The notes beneath the pieces are model-generated. The model was not told the origin of the DNA. It searched no databases and saw only the letters and a program-made list of their open reading frames with translations. Source: a virus. Taken from it: a stretch of DNA of 46,054 nt. Where the stretch lies: positions 1 through 46,054 of IMG/VR virus record IMGVR_UViG_3300048927_000499; one strand, 5' to 3'. Each line of letters starts with the position of its first letter. The first letter of the stretch is position 1. Shown here in pieces: positions 24,057 to 29,155 of this stretch. The position numbers were made by a program, and so were the translations under genes.

Positions 24057-24494
24057 ATGCCCATTTCTGAAGTGACCACCGGTCACGGCTCTCAGCTGCA
24101 CCTCAATCCCAGCGGCGTCCTGACCAAGGTCGCCGAGGTCGACGACATCCCCGAGCTGCCCTCTTTCACCACCACGCTGTACGAGGTCTCGAGCTTCGAC
24201 ACCGAGGAGGCGAAGGAGTTCAAGAAGCAGCCGCTGAAGGAAGGCGTCGAATACACGATCGCCGGCAACTTCGTGCTCGGTTCGACCTCGACCACCCTGC
24301 TCGATGCCGCCGAGGCAAACAACGAGCCGATCCCGTACGAGATCCACCTGCCGCAGGGCGAGGACACCTACGTCGTGAGCGGCACCGCGCTGTTCTACAA
24401 CCTCAAGTACCTGAACGTCGCGAACGAAAAGCGGAAGTTCAACATCACCATGAAGCCGACGTCGAAAGCGGCGCGTGAGAAGGAGACGCCGTAA
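24057..24494 (+). CDS. Tail tube protein
   Basis: 145 residues. Small beta-rich protein: GHGSQLHLNPSGVLTKVAEV, then LPSFTTTLYEVSSFDTEEAK and YTIAGNFVLGSTSTTLLDAA, the pattern of the lambda gpV-like tube subunits in alphaproteobacterial siphophages. It stacks into the tail tube. The next gene starts within its stop codon. Confidence 0.85.
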   Translation: MPISEVTTGHGSQLHLNPSGVLTKVAEVDDIPELPSFTTTLYEVSSFDTEEAKEFKKQPLKEGVEYTIAGNFVLGSTSTTLLDAAEANNEPIPYEIHLPQGEDTYVVSGTALFYNLKYLNVANEKRKFNITMKPTSKAAREKETP

Positions 24495-24856
24495 TGGTCG
24501 CTCCGGTAGACGCGAAAAGCGTCATCACAGTCGACGGTGAGGAATTCACTTTCCGCCTCGGCTTCCGCGCGATCGCCCTGGGCGAGCACCTGGGCGTGGA
24601 CCTGTTCTCCGAAAACGGGATCGACTTCACGATCTCGAAGATCGCGCTTTTGGTGAAGTGCCTGACGGTCGCCGATCACCCCGAGCTTACCGAGGAAGAC
24701 GGGCTGGCGATCGCCTTCCGCTATGGCATCGAGAACATGGCCCCGCTGATCCTCGACCTGCTGAACCGCTTCGGCGGTCGGGCCGACGAGCCGAGTGCCG
24801 AGGGAAAGGCAAAGCCGGCAGCGAAGCGGACGAGGAAGCCGACACCGGCCCCGTAA
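24494..24856 (+). CDS. Tail assembly chaperone, short form (gpG-like)
   Basis: 120 residues. VITVDGEEFTFRLGFRAIAL, GEHLGVDLF, then GLAIAFRYGIENMAPLILDL LNRFGG: the usual first tail-assembly chaperone, which coats the tape measure with a longer frameshift product. The tail end (residues 100-120) is Lys/Pro-rich. GGGAAAG is in the correct frame at codons 104-105 (see the fusion entry). Confidence 0.85.
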   Translation: MVAPVDAKSVITVDGEEFTFRLGFRAIALGEHLGVDLFSENGIDFTISKIALLVKCLTVADHPELTEEDGLAIAFRYGIENMAPLILDLLNRFGGRADEPSAEGKAKPAAKRTRKPTPAP

Positions 24857-25206
24857 CCACCGAGCGTTTCTTCGTCATGTGGTGCCAGTCCGGTTTCGAT
24901 CCCGACAGCTTCTGGCATCAGACGCCCCTGCACTTCCAGCTCGCCATGCGCGGTGTGCGCAAGCGCCTGACGGCCGCGGCGGAAGCGAGCCTCCGAGAGG
25001 CCTGGTGGGGCGGAGCCTTTGCGGGCCTCGCCCAGTCGAAGGGCGGCCTGAAACCGCTCGACCACTACCTGCGCAAGAACAGCGATCGCCGTATGTCGCC
25101 GGACGCGATGCTCGCCGCCTTCCAGTCCATGGAAGCCCGCGGTGCCCCGATGTCGATCCGGAAATTCACCCGCGCAGAACTGGAGGCGAGGAATCGCGAT
25201 GGCTGA
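24494..25206 (+). CDS. Tail assembly chaperone, -1 frameshift fusion (gpGT-like)
   Basis: Predicted product of -1 ribosomal slippage at 24802-24808. The second part is read in the -1 frame to 25206 and contains TTERFFVMWCQSGFDPDSFW, LAMRGVRKRLTAAAEASLRE and AWWGGAFAGLAQSKGG, a T-like domain with no good start of its own close to the stop of the short form. Total about 237 residues. The fusion presumably binds the tail tube subunit while the G part coats the tape measure, as known for lambda. Frameshift efficiency cannot be read from sequence. Confidence 0.78.
24802..24808 (+). promoter_or_regulatory. Programmed -1 frameshift site GGGAAAG
   Basis: Read in the zero frame as G-GGA-AAG, the X-XXY-YYZ heptamer, identical to the lambda G-T slip site. 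It lies 49 bp before the short-form stop. The downstream GC-rich run contains GCCGG and CCGGC, which could pair as a stimulatory stem. Confidence 0.75.
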
Positions 25207-25645
25207 CGAAGCAATCTCGCTCGACGGTTTCGCCGACCTGGACGCGGCACTGTCAGCCCTGGCCGACGAGGCGCTCGAGCGCCAGACGCTCATCAATGCC
25301 GGCATGCGCGCGCTTCAGCCCGTCCAGGCCGAAGCGCGCCGCCTAGTTCCGGTCCATGAGGGCAAGCTGCGCGATTCCCTGCTCATCGCCACCAACGGCT
25401 TGACCCGTGACGCGGCCCGGGACGAGATCATCGACAAGGGAGCGGTTCGGATCTTCTTCGGCACGGCGAACCGCAACGGCGTGCCGCGCGAGTTCGGCAC
25501 GTTCCGCTCGGTCGCCAAGCCTTTTGCCCGACCGGCATGGGATGCGAACGTCGATAGCATGCTGGATACCCTCGGGGCCGAAATTGGTCCGGGCGTGGAA
25601 GCGGCCGCCGAACGCCTCTCGAAACGGCGCGGCCGCAAGGGTTGA
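25199..25645 (+). CDS. HK97 gp10-like tail protein
   Basis: 148 residues. SLDGFADLDAALSALADEAL, AEARRLVPVHEGKLRDSLLI, FFGTANRNGVPREFGTFRSV and AKPFARPAWDAN form the HK97 gp10 family signature (head-tail or tail terminator component). Here the gene is placed after the tail chaperones rather than before the tube gene, a small order change. Overlaps the fusion frame by 8 bp. Confidence 0.85.
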   Translation: MADEAISLDGFADLDAALSALADEALERQTLINAGMRALQPVQAEARRLVPVHEGKLRDSLLIATNGLTRDAARDEIIDKGAVRIFFGTANRNGVPREFGTFRSVAKPFARPAWDANVDSMLDTLGAEIGPGVEAAAERLSKRRGRKG

Positions 25646-25831
25646 TCAGGCCTCGAGGCCCTTTTCGACCAGGCGGCGGATCGCTTCAGACTTCGTCATG
25701 CCAGCGCCAATTGCGTAAGCATCCACCTTGGCGACAAGATCCGCCGGCGCACGGAAGGTCATGTGCGGATCCTTGCCCGTTGCAGGGCGGCCCCGCTTTT
25801 TAGGTGTTACCTTTTCATTTGACGCGCTCAT
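25646..25831 (-). CDS. Ribbon-helix-helix regulator, antisense to the tail operon
   Basis: 61 residues. Basic N-terminus (SNEKVTPKKRGRPATGKD), then MTFRAPADLVAKVDAYAIGA and GMTKSEAIRRLVEKGLEA, a clear CopG/Arc-type ribbon-helix-helix fold. It is the only leftward gene inside the structural operon and abuts the gp10-like stop. Paired 13-bp repeats at its 5' end suggest autoregulation and control of the diverging small genes at 25913. It could be an antitoxin whose partner is one of those genes; that is inference. Confidence 0.8.
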   Translation of the reverse strand: MSASNEKVTPKKRGRPATGKDPHMTFRAPADLVAKVDAYAIGAGMTKSEAIRRLVEKGLEA

Positions 25832-26578: not shown

Positions 26579-29155
26579 ATGGCCGCCAAAATCGGTTCGC
26601 TTCGCGCGGACCTGACGCTTGAGACCGCGCGCTTCAGGGCGGGCGCCGCCGACGCGCAGGCCAAGATGGCGGCGCTGAAGAACAGCATCAACGTCGGGTC
26701 TCGCGAGATCCGCAAGGCCGCGAACGACATGGGCACGAGCATGGCCGGCTTCAGCCGCCAGCTCGCCGACCTGAAGGCGCGCCTCGACCCTCTCTCCGCT
26801 GCCCAGGCGCAGTACCGGCAGGAAGTGGATCTCGCGCGGAAGGCGCTGAGCCTCGGTGCGATCTCCGGCAAGCAATACGGCCAGGCCATGGTGGAGGCCG
26901 GGCAAAAGCTGACCAAGTTCCGCAATGACTTAAAGGCGCTCAGTGAGGGTGCGGGCGCCACTACGGCGCTGTCCGCCGAGATGGCCGCCCTGAAAGCCCG
27001 CCTCGACCCCGCCAGCGCCGCCCTCGCCGCCTACCGCAACGAGACCAAGCTGTTGCGCCAGGCGCAACGCGAAGGCGTAATCTCGACCGAGCAGTTCATC
27101 ACCGGGATGAAGGGGGCTACCGCCGCCTATCGCCAATCGTCCTCGGGTTTGGTCGCTGCCAACGGCGCCGCCCGCGCGGGCATGCAGCAGCTCCAATTCC
27201 AGATCAACGACGTCGCCACGATGTGGGCGATGGGCGCGAAGCCCATGCAAATCTTTGCCTCGCAGGCTGGGCAAGTTGTCCAGGCGATCTCGCTGATGAC
27301 GAACGGTGCCGGGAAGTTCGGAGCGTTCATGGCTGGACCGTGGGGATTGGCAATCACCTCGGCTGTGATCGTGTTGTCGACGCTCGTCCCGAAACTCCTT
27401 GAAACCGACAAAGCGATGAAGAGCGTCGAACTGGCCTCCAGTGGTCTGGCTGACGCACAATCTGTCCTCGGAGAAATCTTCGACCTCACGACCGGAAAGC
27501 TGAAAAGCCAGAACGAGATGCTGCGCCTGAATGCGCAGATCATGGCGATTAACCTGCGCGCACAAGCGAGCATGAATCGCTCCAAAGCGCAGGAGACGTT
27601 CGGTTTCCTAGACAGCGGGCTTGGCCTTTCCATGGGTAAGCGCGCTTTGGGTATGCTGGGTGTCCCGGTCAGCGGCGATTTCGGTCGCGCCCAATTGGTC
27701 AATGACCTTGCGAAGCAGGTGAAAGCGATCGACCCATTGAAAGAGGGGTCCGGTGATGCCTTGGGAGCGTTGGCGAGGAAGGCCGAAAAGCTCAACTTCG
27801 AGGGGCTCAGCATAACTCAGAAAGGCTTCATAGAAGCCATCACAGCGTATGCGTCAGCACCTTACCAAGATCGGACCGCTTCGAAGATCGATAGCGATGT
27901 AAAAACGCGATCCCTCGATTCCGAGTTTCGACAGGAAGGGCGCGGCCGCAAATTGCGCACTCCCACCATGGCGACGGACGCGCAGCAAGACGAGGAGCTT
28001 GCTGCCCTCAATCGCGAATATCTGCAGGCGAAGCTCGATGTCACCAGCGATGCGGAAGAGCGCGCCAAGATCGAGGACGAACTGCTCGCCGCTGATCGTA
28101 AAAAGCGCCTCCTTGAAGTCGACGCCAATAAAAAATTAACCGACGCGCAGAAGGCCGAGCGCAAGGCCGCGATCGAGCGGATATACGGGCCGGAAAGCGC
28201 CTCTGGCGAAATCGGCGTCACGCTCGCCCCGGCCCGGCTCAGGCTGGCCCGCGAGCGCGCCGATCGCGCCGTCCAGCTCGACAACGACATGCTGTCCCGT
28301 CAGGCCGAAACCCTGCAGGCCATGGCCGACATCGAGCCGAACACGCGCAAACGCGCAGAGCTCGAAGGCAAGGCGTTGGAGATCCAGCAGGAGATCCAGC
28401 GCAACCTGCTCGACCAGCAGATCGCCAACGGCGACATTGCAGATGCCGACAAGGCTCGATCGGAGCTGGCCGCGCAGCAGACCGCGCAGCGCCAGCGCCT
28501 CGCGATTCAGAACATGTCGCCGGGCCAGCAGTACGTCTACCAGCTGCGCAGCCAGGTCTCGAATATCAACGACGCGATCGAGGGCATCAAGGTCGACGGC
28601 ATCGACGCCATGATCAACGGCTTCGCAGACGCGACGGTCGGCGTCCGCAAGTTCGGCGACGTGTTCAAGAACGTGGCTCAGCAGGTGATCTCGGACCTGG
28701 TGCGGATCCAAATCCGCAAGGCAATGGTCGGCGCCCTGGGGAACATCTTTGGCGGCGGGCTTTCGCTCGGCGGCGGCGGATCCTCCAACATCTCCAGCGC
28801 CGGCGCGTCCTACGACTTCAGCGCGTTCAGCGGGATCTCGCTCGCCGGCGCGCGCGCCGATGGCGGCCCCACTGCAGCCGGCCTGCCTTACCTGGTCGGC
28901 GAGCGCGGGCCGGAGATCTTCCTGCCCAGCTCCTCCGGCCAGGTCATCCCGAACCACGAGCTATCGAACCTTGGCGGCGGCAACGGCATCGGGACGCAGA
29001 ACAACTACTACGGCCCCGGCGCCGAGCTGTTCTGGAGCCAGGTGGACCAACGCGCCGCCGGCGTCGCCGGGCCCATGTCCGTCGCGTCTGGCGTCCAGGC
29101 CCGATCGGCCGCCGGCGCCGACATGTCGCGCCAGGCCCGCCGACGCATCCCATAA
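26579..29155 (+). CDS. Tail tape measure protein
   Basis: 858 residues. Long helical protein: an N-terminal repeat region (LTLETARFRAGAADAQAKMA, LKARLDPLSAAQAQYRQEVD, and again LKARLDPASAALAAYRNETK). A hydrophobic stretch (AGPWGLAITSAVIVLSTLVP) follows near residue 260, then more coiled coil, and a glycine-rich C-terminus (GLSLGGGGSSN) with LPYLVGERGPEIFLPSSSGQ, a segment typical of tape measure C-termini. It sets tail length and helps DNA ejection; 858 residues would fit a tail near 130 nm by the usual ratio. Confidence 0.92.
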   Translation: MAAKIGSLRADLTLETARFRAGAADAQAKMAALKNSINVGSREIRKAANDMGTSMAGFSRQLADLKARLDPLSAAQAQYRQEVDLARKALSLGAISGKQYGQAMVEAGQKLTKFRNDLKALSEGAGATTALSAEMAALKARLDPASAALAAYRNETKLLRQAQREGVISTEQFITGMKGATAAYRQSSSGLVAANGAARAGMQQLQFQINDVATMWAMGAKPMQIFASQAGQVVQAISLMTNGAGKFGAFMAGPWGLAITSAVIVLSTLVPKLLETDKAMKSVELASSGLADAQSVLGEIFDLTTGKLKSQNEMLRLNAQIMAINLRAQASMNRSKAQETFGFLDSGLGLSMGKRALGMLGVPVSGDFGRAQLVNDLAKQVKAIDPLKEGSGDALGALARKAEKLNFEGLSITQKGFIEAITAYASAPYQDRTASKIDSDVKTRSLDSEFRQEGRGRKLRTPTMATDAQQDEELAALNREYLQAKLDVTSDAEERAKIEDELLAADRKKRLLEVDANKKLTDAQKAERKAAIERIYGPESASGEIGVTLAPARLRLARERADRAVQLDNDMLSRQAETLQAMADIEPNTRKRAELEGKALEIQQEIQRNLLDQQIANGDIADADKARSELAAQQTAQRQRLAIQNMSPGQQYVYQLRSQVSNINDAIEGIKVDGIDAMINGFADATVGVRKFGDVFKNVAQQVISDLVRIQIRKAMVGALGNIFGGGLSLGGGGSSNISSAGASYDFSAFSGISLAGARADGGPTAAGLPYLVGERGPEIFLPSSSGQVIPNHELSNLGGGNGIGTQNNYYGPGAELFWSQVDQRAAGVAGPMSVASGVQARSAAGADMSRQARRRIP

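Follow-up and report, generated by a model that had tools for sequence, protein, structure and literature searches.

The window analysed here is a stretch of 46,054 nucleotides (nt) of viral DNA, positions 1-46,054 of IMG/VR record IMGVR_UViG_3300048927_000499. Our study centres on positions 24,057-25,206, where a G-like tail assembly chaperone gene, followed by a T-like region in the -1 frame, carries near its end a candidate site for programmed ribosomal frameshifting of the kind known from phage lambda. The features that bear on this reading, numbered from the first letter of the window, are as follows.

24057-24494, plus strand: major tail protein gene (PHROG 158 major tail protein, E=2.8e-8)
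24494-24856, plus strand: G-like tail assembly chaperone gene of 120 codons (PHROG 2115 tail protein, E=7.4e-6)
24802-24808, plus strand: slippery heptamer G_GGA_AAG, recognised by sequence and phase, with an in-phase slippery site conserved in homologues
24808-25206, plus strand: T-like region of 132 codons plus stop, in the -1 frame after the predicted slip (PHROG 19318, E=1.3e-13)
24809-24856, plus strand: stretch open in both the G and T frames, compared by codon-use log-odds
24814-24867, plus strand: T-frame peptide AGSEADEEADTGPVTTER, encoded upstream of the ATG at 24877
24877-24879, plus strand: ATG in the T frame, a rival start seen in the sequence
26579-29155, plus strand: tape measure protein gene (PHROG 24 and 1538, E about 1e-15; Pfam TMP_2, E=8e-7)

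The major tail protein gene lies directly upstream of G, its stop overlapping the G start ATG in the sequence TAATG, and the ribosome-binding site of the G start is strong (-7.1 kcal/mol). The tape measure gene follows downstream, with four other open reading frames (ORFs) between it and T. As a preliminary description of this DNA had stated, GGGAAAG stands in phase near the end of the G-like gene: counted from the ORF start at 24494, GGA and AAG form codons 104 and 105, which fits a -1 slip, and the heptamer lies 52 nt upstream of the G stop. The same description put the open -1 frame at about 130 codons, and indeed 132 codons are open from 24808 to the TGA ending at 25206, giving a predicted G-T fusion of 237 amino acids. 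The window contains GGGAAAG four times, where 5.8 copies would be expected, so that the bare heptamer is not rare and by itself proves nothing; it is the phase and position of the heptamer, not its occurrence, that go beyond chance.

The first line of evidence is a switch of coding frame at the heptamer. Codon frequencies were taken from nine other window genes. On this basis the log-odds of the G frame reach +41.9 across the 105 codons up to the heptamer and drop to -2.25 over the 15 codons past it, which places these among the bottom 1.3% of equally long in-frame segments. The T frame behaves in the opposite way: its score is -46 before the heptamer and +28.6 beyond the ATG at 24877. The 23 codons between heptamer and ATG score +8.9 in the T frame, compared with an average of 7.5 for in-frame segments, and this score was reached by none of 1479 -1-frame segments of known genes. 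Within the overlap at 24809-24856, the T frame is coding-like (+5.55 over 16 codons) and the G frame, at the value given above, is not. We therefore conclude that the coding frame switches at the heptamer and not at ATG 24877. A T start at GTG 24658 was also considered and rejected, because T-frame codon use there is strongly non-coding.

The second line of evidence comes from homologous G/T pairs. Relatives were collected from viral contigs via the terminase, by searches with PHROG 19318 and by clade-specific scans, to which two phage records were added; an alignment of all T proteins proved too diverse for a collection scan, and clade alignments were used for this reason. The resulting 39 non-redundant pairs derive from viral contigs and alphaproteobacterial genomes, mostly of Sphingomonadales. 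Close relatives of the window G or T were absent from the phage records, and the viral contigs held only one near-identical contig, which differs by 2 substitutions in 11 kb, keeps the same frames and is possibly not an independent sample. All 39 pairs have a G-frame ORF ahead and T in the -1 frame. Upstream of the conserved T core (WCxAG...FWxxTP), at a distance of 40-110 nt, an in-phase XXXYYYZ heptamer is present in 32 of the 39 pairs; the two remaining phases give 2/39 and 0/39, and in-phase control windows inside G genes 8/316 (2.5%). Part of these 32 matches are TTTCCCG, which is probably fixed by the protein sequence A-F-P-E; in loci L005, L006 and L115 it was rejected as a shift site, since it follows the protein sequence AFPEAAK/AFPGAAK. 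A classical heptamer other than TTTCCCG is the likely site in 29/39 pairs, a relaxed site in 8/39, and 2/39 have none. The likely sites are GGGAAAC (11 pairs), AAACCCT and GGACCCT (6 each), GGGCCCT (5), GGGAAAG (4), and AAAAAAC, GGGAAAA, GGGCCCG, CGACCCT and CGGCCCT (one pair each), and they lie 45-90 nt (median 60) upstream of the T core. Conservation of the heptamer among homologues, which the preliminary description had proposed as a check, is thus borne out for an in-phase slippery site, with letters that vary. The sites remain slippery although their letters differ, a pattern that speaks for selection on slippage. Moreover, 36 of the 39 pairs lack any T-frame ATG, GTG or TTG within 110 nt upstream of the core. 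Among them, the closest relative of the window G (L132, 44% identical) has GGGAAAG as well.

Taken together, the coding switch at the heptamer, the conserved in-phase slippery sites with differing letters, the homologues without an upstream T start and the gene order support the tail chaperone frameshift proposed earlier, and we consider it very probable, on sequence grounds, that this phage makes G and G-T tail assembly chaperones by -1 programmed frameshifting at GGGAAAG. Most ribosomes on the G-like gene would terminate at 24854 to yield gpG of 120 amino acids, and a small fraction would slip back one base on G_GGA_AAG and read the -1 frame to 25206, yielding the G-T protein. By analogy with lambda, the slip efficiency would set the ratio of G to G-T; gpG and the G part of the fusion would attach to the tape measure protein, which is probably the partner of G, and the T part would recruit the major tail protein, probably the partner of T. 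We infer the slippage, its frequency and the binding partners from the sequence and from this analogy.

Several observations weigh against this reading. There is an in-frame T ATG at 24877, 68 nt past the heptamer and 20 nt past the G stop. RNA structure downstream of the window heptamer was not significant; among the homologues such structure is weak on average (mean z -0.50 vs 0.25 at +200 nt), and an Rfam search gave no match. Lambda-type shift sites may do without downstream RNA structure. Two homologues, L134 and L135, have no recognisable shift site, and the homologues are mutually related, so that their counts are not independent events and provide no formal probability.

The preliminary description was mistaken in stating that no start codon lies near the junction, as the ATG at 24877 shows. 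The ribosome-binding energy of this ATG, -3.3 kcal/mol, is about the median of 606 ATGs, compared with -5.7 to -9.7 kcal/mol at the starts of the major tail protein, G, gp10-like and tape measure genes. In the predicted T model (mean predicted local distance difference test score, pLDDT, 78), the first helix comprises residues 20-29 and the ATG corresponds to residue 26, so that a protein begun there would lack over half of this helix. Because of its average ribosome-binding energy, its place inside the first helix and the coding switch 23 codons earlier, this ATG is unlikely to be the main T start. It could nevertheless add some free T to the frameshifted fusion: low-level initiation at this codon is compatible with the data, and two homologues (L024 and L126) carry an ATG 12-18 nt before the T core as well as a heptamer. 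Since ATG 24877 has no ribosome-binding site to speak of and is not conserved, we regard such dual expression as improbable. Less probable still is that the heptamer is incidental and T a separate protein of 109 amino acids made by ribosomes that re-initiate beyond the G stop. In favour of this, the ATG lies in the T frame a short way past that stop, and coupled starts exist in the lineage: in the TAC_6 relatives L145, L147, L150, L152 and L155 and in two more distant phages, L097 and L101, an ATG of the T frame overlaps or touches the stop of G. Against this stand the weak binding energy, the truncated helix, a T-frame coding signal that begins ahead of the ATG and the 36 homologues without such a start. 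A sequencing error or decayed gene can practically be dismissed, for although a single-base indel would also yield a -1 transition, the same frames recur in the near-identical (possibly not independent) contig, and the -1 relation in all 39 diverged pairs effectively refutes it.

The frameshift mechanism itself is well known, and the window is a new, well-supported example. The -1 frameshift of lambda G and G-T has been described before (Levin 1993; Xu 2004, 2013, 2014, as cited in PMC5009743): translation mostly yields G, with a few ribosomes slipping to give G-T; G has the tape measure protein as its binding partner, T the major tail protein; and G_GGA_AAG is reported to be highly shift-prone in Escherichia coli and a G-T shift site (PMC5009743). 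The window shares with lambda this heptamer, the -1 direction near the 3' end of G and the place between the major tail protein and tape measure genes, and it differs in the four other ORFs between T and the tape measure gene. The likeness to lambda claimed in the preliminary description therefore stands for site, direction and gene order and does not extend to the proteins, as the Pfam families of lambda G and T gave no match at E<=0.1 for the window proteins or the homologues. Instead, 9 of 17 aligned G homologues match Pfam TAC_11 (PF11836, gp10 of gene transfer agents, GTAs; best 4.6e-5) and 8 of 19 aligned T homologues match TAC_6 (PF09550; best 1.9e-6), families found in alphaproteobacterial GTAs and prophages. 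The window T scores 15.6 bits against TAC_6, below the curated cut-off of 23.4, and the window G matches neither family. Similar to the window, the TAC_11/TAC_6 pair has the order G then T with T in the -1 frame, whereas the window T, with 132 codons following the slip, exceeds the 58-position model in length and several TAC_6 relatives use an ATG overlapping the G stop in place of a heptamer. Judged by sequence, the pair is in or near the Phage_TAC_11/TAC_6 (GTA gp10) lineage and not recognisably lambda G/T. In addition, the three G-T heptamers of the haloarchaeal siphoviruses HCTV-1, HCTV-2 and HCTV-5 (PMC5009743) recur among the homologues of the window, although those viruses have archaeal hosts.

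Structure prediction gives a G model with a beta hairpin followed by helices and a low-confidence tail from about residue 98, which holds the shift site. Neither the G nor the T model had a significant match in the PDB, so that the fold adds no independent identification. Comparison with viral models likewise gave no significant match (the best, at E=0.008, being an uncharacterised siphovirus protein), and profile searches against PDB sequences returned nothing convincing.

Directly 3' of T in the window lies an HK97-gp10-like tail completion gene (25199-25645) whose ATG overlaps the T end; in L005, L006, L007 and L025 the homologue of this gene sits upstream of the tail terminator gene instead. 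Within the tail gene block, the minus strand at 25646-25831 encodes a small ribbon-helix-helix protein (RHH_1, CopG family; Pfam E=3.6e-6). In Paracoccus phage Pthi1, too, a gene on the minus strand stands between T and the gene for the tape measure protein; it looks unrelated to the RHH_1 gene.

What is modestly new is the variety of ways in which T appears to be expressed in this lineage. GGACCCT occurs in L005, L006, L007, L115, L128 and L129, CGACCCT in L028 and CGGCCCT in L117; these eight relaxed heptamers keep only the A-site CCCT and align to the GGGCCCT or AAACCCT of sister loci. At such sites a -1 slip would leave poor pairing at the P-site codon. A similarly relaxed heptamer, G_GAU_UUU, is mentioned for pea enation mosaic virus (PMC5009743), and we found no paper describing GGACCCT as a shift site. 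The ATG at the G stop in the seven relatives named above suggests coupled re-initiation in place of frameshifting, and the relatives L146, L149 and L153 have no T start and carry CCCTTTC or AAACCCT. Six loci without a classical heptamer (L096, L097, L098, L101, L134 and L135) share GGG GAA, read in the G frame close to where a shift would be expected, with the peptide SGE in four of them; either an alternative slip site or simply peptide conservation could account for it. We tentatively suggest, as a possibility somewhat short of even, that T expression in the alphaproteobacterial chaperone lineage keeps changing between tandem heptamers, relaxed CCCT sites and an ATG overlapping the G stop, and that the relaxed sites would be natural G-T shift sites working mainly by one-tRNA slippage.

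Finally, these results bear on how such loci are annotated and used. Automated gene callers had been said usually to miss this arrangement, which fits the two deposited relatives, Pthi1, with GGGAAAC in phase, and Agrobacterium phage Rivra: in both, the pair is recorded as two separate coding sequences with no joined product. PRFect suggests that annotation fails to join the two frames in many tail chaperone frameshifts (PMC10885494), and these two records are in line with this; our findings suggest that annotation of the G/T pair as two genes falls short in alphaproteobacterial phages. PHROG 19318, which is listed without an assigned function, probably represents the T portion of a tail assembly chaperone fusion, and the 39 pairs, with their ten different site sequences, form a natural panel for comparing which heptamers slip.
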